Shown here piece after piece: positions 55,506-59,992 of a DNA stretch of 64,000 nt (position 1 is the stretch's first letter; every line of letters starts with the position of its first letter). The stretch is from Streptococcus canis (GTDB taxonomy: Bacteria; Bacillota; Bacilli; Lactobacillales; Streptococcaceae). The stretch lies in assembly GCF_900636575.1 (NCBI RefSeq), contig NZ_LR134293.1, positions 1,179,501 to 1,243,500 of the forward strand, in the 5' to 3' direction. Below the pieces are notes generated by a model. It was given only the letters and a program-made list of their open reading frames with translations. It had not been told where the DNA came from and did not search any database. Position numbers and translations under genes: made by a program.

Positions 55506-55519
55506 GCGGCTTGATCTAG

Positions 55520-55547
55520 CTTGAGCATCCATTTGCTCAGGTTTTTT
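55520..55547 (+). terminator. Terminator after the amino-acid ABC genes
   Basis: CTTGAGCA/TGCTCAGG, 8 bp with one G-T pair and a 6-base loop, followed by TTTTTT. Confidence 0.85.
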
Positions 55548-55715
55548 GATTGCAACAAGACTGAACGACTGTTAGCAAGAAAGTTTCTGTGTCAGATTGC
55601 CATTTCTTTTTAGAGTTATTCTTATATGAGATTAAAAAGGCAAAAAACTTAAAGCGAGATATGTTAGAGACAAGTGAATGTGTTATAATTAACACTGTCG
55701 TTAAAAGGAGTACGT

Positions 55716-56195
55716 ATGATCAAATTATCTCATGCAAAAGTTGGAATAGCTTATCAGGTTGAGGGCATTGATTTGCCTCAGGGCCACCAGAAGCATCTGG
55801 CTCACCTTGGCATTACTAAAGGAAGTCAGGTGAAAGTGATGTCACAAACCAAACAGAGTGCGATTGTGATGGTCAAAACCAGTCGTCTAGCTTTTGATGA
55901 TAGTATTCTAGAAACTATTATGGTTAGTGAGGTGATAGGTAAGGAGCAAAGCCTGCCCTTGTCTGAACTAGCTGTTTTAGATGTGGCTATTATTGATGGC
56001 ATTTATGCTAGTAAAGAAACCAAGCGTCGTTTAATGGATATGGGGTTAATCAGAGGAACTCGTTTTCAGTTGCGTAAGCGGGCACCCCTAGGCGATCCCT
56101 TAGAAATTAGTCTGAGGGGTTATGGATTAAGCTTGTGCCAGTCTGAAGCCCAACTAATCTCTGGACGAAAGCTAGAAGATGAGGATACACTATGA
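55716..56195 (+). CDS. feoA: FeoA-domain protein (duplicated)
   Basis: A 159-residue protein made of two FeoA (SH3-like) domains, about residues 1-72 (GIDLPQGHQKHLAHLGITKG) and 80-155 (RRLMDMGLIRGTRFQLRKRA, DPLEISLRGYGLSL). FeoA helps the ferrous-iron permease FeoB. It starts at ATG 55716 after AAAAGGAG, and its stop overlaps the feoB start (ATGA). Because feoB is destroyed, this protein may now have no partner. Confidence 0.9.
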   Translation: MIKLSHAKVGIAYQVEGIDLPQGHQKHLAHLGITKGSQVKVMSQTKQSAIVMVKTSRLAFDDSILETIMVSEVIGKEQSLPLSELAVLDVAIIDGIYASKETKRRLMDMGLIRGTRFQLRKRAPLGDPLEISLRGYGLSLCQSEAQLISGRKLEDEDTL

Positions 56196-56450
56196 CAAAA
56201 ATAGCCTTGATTGGCAATCCCAATAGTGGAAAATCCAGCCTGTTTAATTTATTGACGAGAACCAACCGACCAACGGGTGGGAAATTGGCCCGAAGTTTAG
56301 TATTGTTGGGACAGCCAGTTACCCGATGGATTGTTTTGGCTGGAGGGTGTGTATTAGCACTGGTTTATGTTATTGTGGAAAGGTCAACCCTAGACCCTAG
56401 TCAAGTGATTACCAGATCTCATCTTGAACGTATTCGTCAGGAGGAAAAAG
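56192..56450 (+). pseudogene. feoB: feoB remnant: frameshift and large internal deletion
   Basis: The reading starts MTKIALIGNPNSGKSSLFNL, the G1 loop of the FeoB GTPase. After TNR the frame departs: CAACGGGTGGGAAATTGGCCC, which would encode QRVGNWP of the FeoB G2 region, sits one frame off because of a 4-base insertion in a near-repeat of ACCAACCG. About 20 bases later the sequence jumps to a hydrophobic segment (WIVLAGGCVLALVYVIV) that fits the extreme C-terminus. FeoB is normally about 650-720 residues; nearly all of it is gone. The C-terminal assignment is inference. The open frame continues to 56521 by chance over the next gene. Confidence 0.82.
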
Positions 56451-56453
56451 TTA

Positions 56454-56602
56454 ATGTCAACGCTTATTCTTGCAACCTTTATAGGAGTTTTAATCATTCT
56501 AAGTCTTACCCGTTACAATAACAAAAGGGATCTCGTGGGGATTGCAACTGTTCTTGTCCTGTGAGGGAAGATATGAAAAAGACCTATATGAATAAAACAT
56601 AG
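56454..56602 (+). pseudogene. FeoB-associated Cys-rich membrane peptide, frameshifted
   Basis: AGGAGG at 56439-56444 and ATG at 56454 begin MSTLILATFIGVLIILSLTR, a single membrane helix. In this frame it ends early at TGA 56562-56564. One extra A in the AAAA run near 56521-56524 would restore a frame reading KKGSRGDCNCSCPVREDMKK and YMNKT, stopping at 56600-56602. A membrane helix followed by a DCNCSCP cysteine cluster is the hallmark of the small peptides that follow feoB in Firmicutes. Confidence 0.75.
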
Positions 56603-56645
56603 TTCCTTAGAAAGGTTATGGAGATTGGGATCATTATTTTGCTTA

Positions 56646-56674
56646 GAGGCTGTTCTTGTGAACAGCCTCTTTTT
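56646..56674 (+). terminator. Terminator of the feo locus
   Basis: GAGGCTGTTC/GAACAGCCTC, a perfect 10-bp stem with loop TTGT followed by TTTTT. Confidence 0.92.
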
Positions 56675-56783
56675 GTATGTCAAAGAGTAGTTACTTGTCA
56701 GATAAAGGTTTAGGGGATAGAGCATCTTTGATAAAAAAAGAATCTCACTTACTCTGAAAATTTGTGATCTTTTTAACTTTTTA

Positions 56784-56829
56784 TTGCAATCGTTTTCATA
56801 ATGTATTATAATAGTTACCAAGGTAGCTA
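56784..56829 (+). promoter_or_regulatory. Promoter and 18-bp palindromic operator of the TrmB-TauE-OCD cassette
   Basis: TTGCAA (56784-56789), 17 bases, TATAAT (56807-56812). TAGTTACCAAGGTAGCTA at 56812-56829 is an imperfect 18-bp palindrome (TAGYTACC, AA, GGTARCTA) lying across the expected transcription start at about 56819. The adjacent TrmB-family gene product is the likely binder. The ascription is inference. Confidence 0.65.
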
Positions 56830-56851
56830 CTAAATCTAATAAGGAGATTCT

Positions 56852-57640
56852 ATGGAGTCATTGTTGCAAGCGATGAAGTATTTTGGATTTACTGAGATGG
56901 AAACCAAGGTTTATGTTTCGCTTTTAGAATTTGGACCCTCGACCGGATATGAAATTAGTAAGAAATCGGGTGTTCCCAGATCAAAAGTCTATAATATTTT
57001 GGAAAAATTAGTGAAAGAGGGAATTATTTTTGACAACCACGCTGATATAAAGCTCTACACTGCTCTGTCAGTGGAAGAAATGTTACTACGCATTGACAAT
57101 AAAACGGAGAAACAATTTCAACAGATAGAACATTATTTAAGCCGTATTACAGAAAAGCAAAAGAGTTATGAACTCTGGAAAGTAGATCATTTGCAAAGTG
57201 TCATTGAAAAAGTTCATTTTTTAATTAATCACGCTAATGAAAGTTTACTTATCCAAATTTGGGAGCCTGATTTGACAGAAGAGATAGTTCAACTGTTGCA
57301 AAAGGCTGAGGAGAGGTTAAACGTTTTTATTTTAATTTTATTCAGCGATAATCACCATTACGATTTACCCCTGAAACATTACTATAAGCATGGTTTTGAA
57401 CAAGCTAAAAGACATGATATGGGTGGTCGTTGGATTAATATTATTGCAGATGATGATTCGGTTCTTTTTGGAACCCTGGAGGATAACATCAATATTATTT
57501 GGACCCATCATCCAGCCATGCTATCACTGGCTAAAGAATACATTAAGCATGATGCTTATACCTTGAAAATTATTGAAGATCATCGAGAGATGCTTGAAAA
57601 AACTTATGGCCCTGATTTAGGTCAAATACGAGAAATCTAA
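56852..57640 (+). CDS. TrmB-family transcription regulator
   Basis: A 262-residue regulator with an N-terminal winged helix (ETKVYVSLLEFGPSTGYEIS, SGVPRSKVYNILEKLVKEGI) typical of the TrmB family. A coiled-coil linker is followed by a C-terminal effector domain (SVIEKVHFLINHANESLLIQ) of the PLD-like TrmB type. TrmB proteins are best known as sugar-sensing regulators in archaea, but the effector here is unknown. It is the first gene of a three-gene row with a TauE/SafE exporter and an OCD-family enzyme, and a palindrome overlies the promoter start. Confidence 0.88.
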   Translation: MESLLQAMKYFGFTEMETKVYVSLLEFGPSTGYEISKKSGVPRSKVYNILEKLVKEGIIFDNHADIKLYTALSVEEMLLRIDNKTEKQFQQIEHYLSRITEKQKSYELWKVDHLQSVIEKVHFLINHANESLLIQIWEPDLTEEIVQLLQKAEERLNVFILILFSDNHHYDLPLKHYYKHGFEQAKRHDMGGRWINIIADDDSVLFGTLEDNINIIWTHHPAMLSLAKEYIKHDAYTLKIIEDHREMLEKTYGPDLGQIREI

Positions 57641-57668
57641 TTATTGAAAATGAAGGAGTACTACTATC

Positions 57669-58526
57669 ATGTCCATTAAAAATATCTTATTGATTCTTGT
57701 TATTGCAGTGAATGCCTACTTTGCCTATATCCTAGTCAAGGATTTATTATCGCACAAGAAAGAAACAATGGCTGAAGCTGCACCAACAGCAGTTATGCCT
57801 TTTTCAAGTGCCATTATCTTTTTCTTATCAACTATTGGTATTTCGGACTTTGCCATCAGTACAAGTTTATACCCAAAATTAAACTGGACTAGTGTTAAAA
57901 AACTGCCAGGAACCTTGAATGCTCAGTGTACCATACCGGTCGCTGTGATGGCCTTGGCTTATATTCAGAGTATCAAAGTAGGCGTCTTAACCTTAGCGGT
58001 CTGCATTATCTGTCAAGTGATCGGATCTTATTTTGGTGCAAAATTTGCCATTAAATTGCCAGCAGAAAAAATTAAATATTACATCGGAGTTGGGATGATT
58101 ATTGCTGCAATAATCATTGTTGGTGGTTTATTAGGAATGTTACCAAAAGGTGGTAATGCAACAGAATTAACAGGTTTGAAATTAGTCGTTGCTGGTATTC
58201 TCTTGTTTATTTTTGGAGCATTAAATAATATCGGTATTGGTTCATACGCTTTAACGATGGTAACTGTTTATCTTCTTGGAATGAGTCCAGCAGTTTCCTT
58301 CCCAATTATGATGGGAGCCGCAACCTTCTCTGTTCCAGTTGGTAGCGTACAATTTGTTAAATCTGGAGAATACAGTCGAAAAATTACTCTTTTCACCTCT
58401 ACCTTTGGGGTGTTAGGTGTTTTAGCCGCCGTTCACTTTGTAACGTCATTAAATATTGATGCCTTGAAGTGGGTAGTAGCAGCTATTCTTATTTATAGTT
58501 CGTATGGTATGTTAAAAAAAGTTTAA
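57669..58526 (+). CDS. TauE/SafE-family membrane exporter
   Basis: A 285-residue membrane protein with about eight hydrophobic segments, including FSSAIIFFLSTIGISDFAIS and GALNNIGIGSYALTMVTVYL. It belongs to the TauE/SafE family, whose members export or import sulfite, sulfoacetate, organosulfonates or other small anions. A cytoplasmic KLNWTSVKKLPGTLN loop follows the first repeat. Start ATG 57669 follows AAGGAG. The transported anion cannot be inferred from the sequence alone. Confidence 0.85.
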   Translation: MSIKNILLILVIAVNAYFAYILVKDLLSHKKETMAEAAPTAVMPFSSAIIFFLSTIGISDFAISTSLYPKLNWTSVKKLPGTLNAQCTIPVAVMALAYIQSIKVGVLTLAVCIICQVIGSYFGAKFAIKLPAEKIKYYIGVGMIIAAIIIVGGLLGMLPKGGNATELTGLKLVVAGILLFIFGALNNIGIGSYALTMVTVYLLGMSPAVSFPIMMGAATFSVPVGSVQFVKSGEYSRKITLFTSTFGVLGVLAAVHFVTSLNIDALKWVVAAILIYSSYGMLKKV

Positions 58527-58543
58527 GTTAAAGGAGCATGACC

Positions 58544-59539
58544 ATGTTAGTATTAACAAAAGAAGATATTAAAGCCTGTTTTTCAATGTCAGACGCTATT
58601 AAGGCAAGTAAGGTCTCAGTCAAAGCATATTCTGCTGGGCAAGCAAAAGTTCCCTTACGTGTGAATTTACCAGTTAATCAGTTTAATGGCCAAAGTCTTT
58701 ATATGCCTGCAGCTGTTGAAGGTGATATTAATGCTGTTGGGGTTAAGGTTGTTTCAGTTTATCCAGACAATATTGATAGAGGTTTGCCATCGGTACCTGC
58801 TTCGATGGTTGTGGTAGATGCTGAGACTGGTGTGGTATCAGCAATCATGGATGGAACTTTTTTAACTCAACTAAGAACTGGAGCAGTACAGGGGGCAGCT
58901 ACTGATTTGTTAGCGCGAAAAGATGCTAAAATTGCTGCAATTATTGGTACAGGAGGCCAAGCCATTCAACAATCATTAGCGATGTTAACCGTCCGATCTA
59001 TTGAAGAATTGCGTGTTTATGACATTAATTTAGAGCGTGCTCAAGCTTTCGCTAAAGAACTTGATGACGAATTTGGTAAACTATTCAACACTAAATTTAT
59101 AGCAGTGTCGTCTCCAAAAGAAGCGGTTTCAGGTGCTGATATTATCACGTCAGTGACAACGTCAAAAAGACCGACATTCGACGCACAAGATATTAAACCA
59201 GGTACTCATGTTAATGGTGTGGGAGCATATACTTCAGAAATGATTGAACTTCCTGCAGAAATCTTTGCCAAGGCGGAAACCATTGTTTTTGATACTGTTG
59301 ACGGTGTGGTTAATGAGGCAGGCGATGTCATGAATGCTCTGAACACAAAGGCTATTCAAGAAACAGATATTACAGGTGAACTTGGACAGCTAGTGCTCGG
59401 AAGTATTACTGGTCGGCAAAGCAAACAAGGTATAACACTCTTTAAAACGGTAGGATCTGCTGTCTTAGATGTTGTTACAGCTCAACTGATTGTTAAAAAG
59501 GCTCTTGAAAAAGGAATTGGAACAATCATTGATTTGTAA
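58544..59539 (+). CDS. Ornithine cyclodeaminase/mu-crystallin family enzyme
   Basis: A 331-residue NAD(P)-dependent enzyme of the OCD/mu-crystallin family. Visible features are the Rossmann loop AIIGTGGQAIQQSLAML, VGVKVVSVYPDN with a substrate lysine, and GTHVNGVGAYTSEMIELPAE. Members include ornithine cyclodeaminase, alanine dehydrogenase, ketimine reductase and SbnB-like enzymes, so the substrate is open. ATG 58544 gives better spacing from AAGGAG than ATG 58538. It is the last gene of the cassette; a product of the arc pathway (ornithine) is a candidate substrate only by analogy. Confidence 0.88.
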   Translation: MLVLTKEDIKACFSMSDAIKASKVSVKAYSAGQAKVPLRVNLPVNQFNGQSLYMPAAVEGDINAVGVKVVSVYPDNIDRGLPSVPASMVVVDAETGVVSAIMDGTFLTQLRTGAVQGAATDLLARKDAKIAAIIGTGGQAIQQSLAMLTVRSIEELRVYDINLERAQAFAKELDDEFGKLFNTKFIAVSSPKEAVSGADIITSVTTSKRPTFDAQDIKPGTHVNGVGAYTSEMIELPAEIFAKAETIVFDTVDGVVNEAGDVMNALNTKAIQETDITGELGQLVLGSITGRQSKQGITLFKTVGSAVLDVVTAQLIVKKALEKGIGTIIDL

Positions 59540-59697
59540 TACCTTATGTTGAATTCAGGATAGGAATAAATGGATGTGATCTTTTGACGATAAGGCTGAA
59601 TTTTACCTCTATGAGAGGTCAATCAGATTGTTCAAAATCACTTGTCCTTTGCTTTATAGGGACTTATTGATTCGCCTAACTGTTAGTTGATTAAATT

Positions 59698-59743
59698 GAG
59701 CTTGTTAATGGTGTGACACTAGCATTATTAGCAAGCTCTTTTT
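59698..59743 (+). terminator. Terminator after the OCD gene
   Basis: GAGCTTG (59698-59704) pairs with CAAGCTC (59732-59738), with further A/T pairs inside, followed by TTTTT. It is 160 bases after the stop codon. Confidence 0.75.
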
Positions 59744-59992
59744 ATTTAGTCACTTTTATCAGTAAGCGATGAGATTAGATTGAGACGCTTTAGGGTATAA
59801 AAGCAAGAAAATCTAATTTACCTTATTCATAAAGTCTCCCCTTACCTATGTATGGTCTGTTATTAACCATGCTGCGCAAGGCTTTAGGTTTATCGGAAAG
59901 TAGGAATAAGCAATCGAAAAAGTGCGAACGGAAGAGGGAACGTCCTAGGTTGCAGAAAATCAATATTAAGATAGGTTAAGTTATAAAATAAG

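Follow-up and report, generated by a model that had tools for sequence, protein, structure and literature searches.

A trmB-tauE-ocd cassette of Streptococcus canis with a conserved operator, probably a self-regulated operon for a cyclic imino acid

What brings together a TrmB-type regulator, a TauE/SafE-family permease and an enzyme of the ornithine cyclodeaminase (OCD)/mu-crystallin family, and on which compound would they act? The question is raised by three genes, trmB, tauE and ocd, in a 64,000-nucleotide stretch of the Streptococcus canis genome (GCF_900636575.1, contig NZ_LR134293.1, positions 1,179,501 to 1,243,500; hereafter the window, from whose first letter coordinates are counted). 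A first-pass annotation had read these genes as a self-regulated cassette with a palindrome at the start site, an interpretation that is supported in part. The row itself is confirmed as compact and co-directional between two terminator-like hairpins, a conserved site accompanies TrmB, and the compound handled is probably a cyclic imino acid. The features concerned are as follows.

56645..56670, + strand: terminator-like hairpin 5' of the cassette, 11-pair stem, 4-nt loop and T tract
56762..56779, + strand: possible second regulator site TTGTGATCTTTTTAACTT, weak, 10/14 matches to TTGTGAA-N4-TTCACAA
56784..56812, + strand: promoter TTGCAA-17-TATAAT, pattern match at 10/12
56809..56832, + strand: predicted TrmB operator TAATAGTTACCAAGGTAGCTACTA, conserved site that includes the palindrome at 56812-56829
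56852..57640, + strand: trmB-type regulator, 262 amino acids (aa), winged helix-turn-helix (HTH) and PLD-like domain, PF01978
57669..58526, + strand: tauE, TauE/SafE-family permease, 285 aa, PF01925
58538..59539 (likely start 58544), + strand: ocd, predicted OCD/mu-crystallin-family NAD(H) imine reductase, 333 aa
59698..59738, + strand: terminator-like hairpin 3' of ocd, 17-pair stem and T tract

As the first-pass annotation had claimed, an 18-bp palindrome, TAGTTACCAAGGTAGCTA, is present at 56812-56829; leaving aside the central AA, a single pair is mismatched (hand count). The fuller site, TAATAGTTACCAAGGTAGCTACTA at 56809-56832, is an imperfect 24-bp element with 9/12 pairs (hand count) that reaches into the -10 box. 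Across loci the site takes the general form TAGTAGTTAC-N4/5-GTAGCTACTA, of 24 or 25 bp, and the 18-bp palindrome is its core. An imperfect 18-bp palindrome is weak evidence by itself; its conservation is not. The contigs of named genomes were scanned with a TauE alignment, and the 80 highest-ranking of 88 loci were retained. In 76 of these, matches to TAGTAGTTAC-N3..6-GTAGCTACTA were scored to a maximum of 20 within -200 to +30 bases around the first cassette gene; L089 was left out for its short upstream region, and L125, L136 and L140 for want of a core by open reading frame (ORF) calling. The 44 scored loci with a TrmB match comprise 41 at 17-20, two Alkalibacterium loci at 16, and L119, which retains only a 74-aa remnant of TrmB and is the sole one of the 44 without the site. 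The site at L102 scores 18 with its start re-read (11 with the start called too far upstream). None of the 32 scored loci without a TrmB match carries the operator, and none exceeds 13. Among 1520 dinucleotide shuffles, 15 scored 15, the maximum, while nine of 697 other upstream regions from the same loci scored 15 or more and none reached 17; their best score of 16 equals that of the Alkalibacterium loci.

The site lies across the -10 box in all nine Streptococcus loci with TrmB and in neither of the two without, and among the 42 operators read on the + strand, 41 follow a TA that completes TATAGT or TATAAT. At L110, where trmB is reduced to a 49-aa end, about half of the palindrome is left, as judged by eye. 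When 395 Lactobacillales genomes were scanned with a strict DNA pattern, 20 sites were returned in 20 genomes, one each. Of these, 19 (the window included) stand directly 5' of trmB-tauE, L161 being the exception; no second strict site occurred in any of these genomes, although a diverged target may exist. Because the operator tracks the presence of TrmB across loci, TrmB is very probably its cognate protein and, to judge from these alignments, very probably controls its own operon, as had been proposed. Since the site covers the -10 box and the start site, this control would take the form of repression. A conserved palindrome in front of orthologous cassettes had been set beforehand as the point on which the proposal would turn, and it was found in 9/9 Streptococcus loci and 41/44 named loci with TrmB, while 19 of the 20 strict sites lie in front of trmB-tauE.

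The layout of the genes agrees with a single operon. All three lie on the + strand, with gaps of 28 bp (trmB/tauE) and 11 bp (tauE/ocd), and each product exceeds its Pfam cut-off: 72.9 bits versus 25.6 for the TrmB HTH (PF01978), 49.2 versus 32.6 for TauE (PF01925) and 234 versus 24 for OCD_Mu_crystall. The ocd gene probably starts at 58544, behind AAAGGAG, because the proteins of relatives start at that methionine. Terminator-like sites number five in the surrounding 5-kb stretch (3.1 expected from shuffles). The promoter is among the two best matches of that stretch (10/12); since promoter-like sites are about as many there as expected (16 versus 15.4), the match alone is little proof.

The first-pass annotation regarded the row as a streptococcal system, for which it knew no precedent. 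No earlier account of a trmB-tauE-ocd row was found in the literature searched, as far as the available text of those sources extends, yet the row is a widespread module instead of a streptococcal one. Only 11 of 284 Streptococcus genomes, that of the window included, encode a TauE with at least 73% identity to the window's; the same 11 encode an OCD with at least 59% identity, and a twelfth (G193) has an OCD match at 36%. The two genes are adjacent in all 11, and trmB precedes both in nine. The carriers include S. gallolyticus BI02, S. halichoeri, S. suis SSHP-D, S. didelphis, S. pacificus, S. ictaluri, S. gallinaceus and S. uberis CAIM 1894. Within the best 80 of 88 loci, ocd adjoins tauE in 63 (61 by profile and two by tblastn) and a TrmB match occurs in 45; tblastn was run on 21 of the 80, and it recovered ocd at L125 and L136, where it gave no trmB match. 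Loci bearing TrmB are found in Enterococcus, Vagococcus, Carnobacterium, Lactobacillaceae, Paenibacillus, Bacillus, Clostridium, Faecalicoccus and Treponema parvum. A TauE relative also occurs on 15 plasmid records, and of three opened, those of Carnobacterium viridans and a 747-kb E. faecalis record hold the whole row, annotated as a TrmB-family or helix-turn-helix protein, a TauE/SafE exporter and an ornithine cyclodeaminase family protein, with an operator scoring 19/20 in both. The module is therefore portable.

Several loci depart from this arrangement. The trmB of S. suis SSHP-D (L042) contains an internal stop, the tauE of S. uberis CAIM 1894 (L047) a frameshift, and the tauE of S. ictaluri (L046) is matched only from residue 37, so that some hosts may be losing the cassette with the operator still there, as far as these sequences tell. 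In S. gallolyticus BI02 (G088; L038 86-5500, reverse-complemented), trmB and the operator are absent, and tauE is directly preceded by an 1804-aa ORF whose end, by eye, is an LPSTGD-type wall anchor. Four Synergistaceae bins and one Sphaerochaetaceae bin (L132, L133, L137, L138 and L139) have tauE-ocd and no trmB match; there, the next gene resembles a YheO/DauR-type regulator (by eye). A YkvI-like membrane protein, again named by eye, is encoded 3' of ocd in a Spirochaetaceae bin (L113 7988-9097) and in Treponema parvum (L118 7957-9030), the latter protein having no NCBIfam match.

The regulator keeps only part of the archaeal TrmB architecture. The AlphaFold2 model of the window's protein (predicted local distance difference test score 92.6) finds TrmBL2, TrmB and the TrmB sugar-binding domain as its best solved matches, with PLD-family proteins tying for the second domain. 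Tyr47 is invariant in all 35 aligned TrmB sequences, and the window's protein has Asn48 at the adjoining Asp position, a Tyr-Asn pair also seen in MalR; the available text of PMC4158304 gives Y50 and D51 as the DNA-binding pair of Pfu TrmB. With archaeal TrmB, TrmBL1 and TrmBL2 of P. furiosus and T. litoralis, as described in that text, the protein shares the TrmB HTH, the DNA-binding Tyr, the PLD-like second domain and, by sequence in the present case, a palindromic site at the promoter (PMC4158304). Unlike archaeal TrmB, it ends at residue 262 and thus is without the C-terminal part bearing the sugar-binding Gly320 and Glu326, which TrmBL2 and TrmBL3 likewise do not have. PF11495 matches residues 108-207 only, at 18.9 bits, under its cut-off of 22.2. 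The cassette also differs in having a bacterial promoter, and genes for an imino-acid enzyme and a permease rather than for sugar transport. The archaeal site TACT-N3-AGTA is exact in 6 of 46 cassette operators, and TACY-N2/3-RGTA is present in 28 of 46; the cassette arms TAGTAG/CTACTA reach further, and the strict scan gave no genome more than one site.

The nearest solved relative of the enzyme, by both sequence and fold, is the pyrroline-2-carboxylate reductase of T. litoralis with NADH and L-proline (6t3e; 43% identity, template modelling (TM) score 0.91). The first-pass annotation's imino- or amino-acid enzyme is supported. The protein is closer to 6t3e and to archaeal alanine dehydrogenase than to SbnB or mu-crystallin; these two, iminosuccinate reductase and ornithine cyclodeaminase share the fold at greater distance (25-29% identity, TM 0.81-0.90). 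Arg41, Lys70, Arg113 and Asp162 are invariant in all 29 aligned OCD sequences; an Asp at the end of β2 favours NAD(H). Tyr231, within a GAYT stretch and nearly invariant in the same alignment, replaces the Asp of the GADG stretch of archaeal alanine dehydrogenase, a residue that we take to be equivalent to Asp228 of ornithine cyclodeaminase. In true ornithine cyclodeaminase, according to the text available from two studies, Asp228 acts on the α-amino group (PMC3497308; PMC3840593), and Arg41, Lys70 and Arg113 appear to fit the carboxylate-binding residues given there for the family. OCD-superfamily members encoded beside proline-racemase-family genes were identified as pyrroline-2-carboxylate reductases in NADPH assays (Zhao et al. 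2014; PMC4113996, in the part available). With these enzymes and 6t3e, the streptococcal OCD shares the fold, the carboxylate-binding residues and the lack of an Asp at the alanine-dehydrogenase position; unlike them, it has no proline-racemase-family partner and is paired with TauE and TrmB, and its activity is predicted. The protein scores under the cut-off of every NCBIfam equivalog model. It comes closest with NF006379 (411.2 bits versus 417), an ornithine cyclodeaminase family model (PRK08618) whose name is not tied to a tested function.

A proline-type substrate is preferred mainly because relatives of the permease adjoin prd, proC and MttB genes. No solved relative of TauE was found by sequence. 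A phylum scan of 398 genomes gave 16 further TauE places in 13 genomes at 1e-50, and 11 of 15 fetched regions from outside the cassette clade have D-proline-reductase-like genes 5' of tauE: nine have a proline-racemase-like gene immediately before tauE, one has a transposase-like gene in the interval, and in one tauE comes after a PrdB-like gene. Most neighbouring genes were identified by eye from the start of their translations, and profiles were applied to 10; the prd families were checked by profile in L203 only, where PrdA exceeds its cut-off and the PrdB and proline racemase models are best but under theirs. The L. salivarius plasmid pMP1046A is annotated as carrying a prd operon that ends in a TauE-family permease. 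Two loci include proC, namely L191 (tauE-ocd-proC) and L114 (tauE-proC-proline racemase family), both with proC over the profile cut-off. In a TauE tree rooted on three distant streptococcal TauE sequences, the cassette clade has L191 as its first branch. Immediately outside this clade come the MttB-linked sequences with one other, and farther out the prd-linked sequences with some unassigned clostridial ones (successive node support 0.90, 1.0 and 0.895). The prd operons thus have a related TauE lineage and proline chemistry in common with the cassette; they differ in having PrdA/B/D and proline racemase, with no ocd or trmB seen in those fetched.

Operons of the prd type whose last gene encodes a TauE/SafE-family permease, in most cases behind proline racemase, were seen at L192-L197, L199-L203 and L225 3953-4831, and this permease is a candidate proline or 5-aminovalerate transporter. 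At L204 and L205, a TauE-family permease adjoins MttB-type corrinoid methyltransferase genes (one checked, its best model under cut-off).

From the gene row, the operator and its tie to TrmB, the domain make-up and the nearest enzyme, all computed here, we infer a scheme of binding, repression, ligand, substrate and transport in which the cassette is probably a self-contained, TrmB-repressed operon for a cyclic imino acid, with OCD as the reductase and TauE as the transporter. TrmB would bind the 24/25-bp palindrome, which covers the -10 box and start site, and would thereby block its own operon until a small ligand released it; this ligand would sit in the PLD-like domain and is probably the enzyme's substrate or product rather than a sugar. 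The OCD enzyme would be the NADH-using reductase that makes the amino acid from the cyclic imine, and TauE would move the imine or the amino acid across the membrane. The substrate may be Δ1-pyrroline-2-carboxylate, its six-membered homologue or a close relative. Several observations weigh against this scheme. PF05544 (the proline racemase/t3Hyp dehydratase family) occurs in none of the 11 cassette-bearing streptococci, in which the known source of pyrroline-2-carboxylate is therefore missing; most cassette neighbourhoods are without a recognisable proline gene, as read by eye; and NF004793, the pyrroline/piperideine-2-carboxylate reductase model, scores 229.2 bits, under its cut-off of 322. 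In S. suis, moreover, the operator is kept despite the internal stop in trmB, so that site and intact TrmB are not perfectly coincident.

A wider proposal is more tentative. It holds that a bacterial TrmB branch swapped sugar sensing for cyclic-imino-acid sensing within a portable three-gene cassette whose operator is near-frozen across Bacillota and a Treponema, and that a TauE lineage annotated as sulfite exporters moves proline-type compounds in this cassette as well as at the end of D-proline reductase operons. The analysis gives a bacterial TrmB regulator a concrete operator and operon, and it suggests that a TrmB lacking the sugar-binding end has conserved a single site almost unaltered in several classes and in one Treponema. 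It also puts forward proline-type imino acids as a first substrate hypothesis for the TauE lineage labelled sulfite exporter, including the unnamed permease of prd operons.

Within the cyclic-imino-acid scheme, it is quite possible, if somewhat short of expected, that the cassette serves scavenging, with TauE importing a proline-like imino acid from which OCD makes proline. The TauE family is described in import or export in the accessible part of PMC3489775, the prd-linked relatives belong to a proline-consuming pathway, and many carriers are host-associated, judging by their names. Against uptake, the direction is not readable from sequence, the cassette is also present in Paenibacillus, Bacillus and Clostridium, and proC is found elsewhere in the genome in 11/11 cassette-bearing streptococci, which therefore do not need the cassette for proline synthesis. 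For the same want of a readable direction, the export or detoxification that the first-pass annotation had suggested is not supported as such.

An unlikely alternative keeps the TrmB-controlled operon and assigns it to an acyclic 2-imino or amino acid (alanine-type, N-alkyl or a reactive imine to be scavenged), the product being exported by TauE. Archaeal alanine dehydrogenase is indeed the second nearest solved relative (33% identity, TM 0.89-0.91), members of the OCD family use several imines (PMC4113996, in the same part), and the streptococci have no proline-racemase-family source of a cyclic imine. However, the alanine dehydrogenase model TIGR02371 reaches 237.7 bits, well under its cut-off of 409.15, the nearly invariant Tyr231 stands in place of the alanine dehydrogenase Asp, and the metabolic neighbours identified by profile are proC, the proline racemase family and prd genes.

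Less probable still is an exporter of sulfite or organosulfonates coupled to an opine-type or sulfur-amino-acid dehydrogenase. The Pfam match is to TauE/SafE, a family shared with sulfite exporters, whose characterised TauE members are tied to sulfite and taurine metabolism, and the OCD family includes tauropine dehydrogenase (PMC3489775 and PMC4113996, respectively, in their available text). Thiomorpholine-carboxylate dehydrogenase belongs to it as well. Sulfur-related neighbours comprise a dimethyl sulfoxide (DMSO)-reductase-like cluster 5' in L104 and SufS/SufE-like genes 5' in L118. Unlike around such exporters, no sulfonate genes were seen by eye among the listed neighbours of the cassette (no characterised exporter being directly compared), and related TauE lineages lie in D-proline reductase and MttB-type methyltransferase loci; the organosulfonate role raised by the first-pass annotation thus finds no pointer in sequence or neighbourhood. 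Finally, that the palindrome belongs to another factor, forms an RNA hairpin or arose by chance is very improbable, for although an imperfect palindrome read from sequence is weak alone and the S. suis site survives the stop in trmB, the site distinguishes loci with TrmB from those without (41/44 versus 0/32), the remnant loci L119 and L110 have no site or about half of one, and, given the overlap of the arms with the -10 box, only part of the palindrome would be transcribed.

A possible second motif lies 5' of the operator. A stretch of the shape TTGTGAA-N4-TTCACAA, which we take to be that of Rex or Crp-family sites, occurs with at least 11/14 matches in 19 of 42 loci, as compared with 1.2% of 2100 mononucleotide shuffles, the only control used for this motif; its best match starts within the same 5-base range in 18 of the 42. 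Redox control would suit an NADH-using enzyme, and is only a lead.

The surroundings of the cassette in the window appear changeable. At 55716-56521, FeoA is followed by a 109-aa ORF that matches FeoB at residues 3-28 only, and the feoB just 5' of the cassette therefore seems, by its sequence, to be a remnant. In the relative G012 (L222, compared with window 55506-59962), only about 280 bp separates the flanking ABC gene from pgm, and this gap contains no feo genes and no cassette; as both are absent there, the location of the cassette is a variable site.

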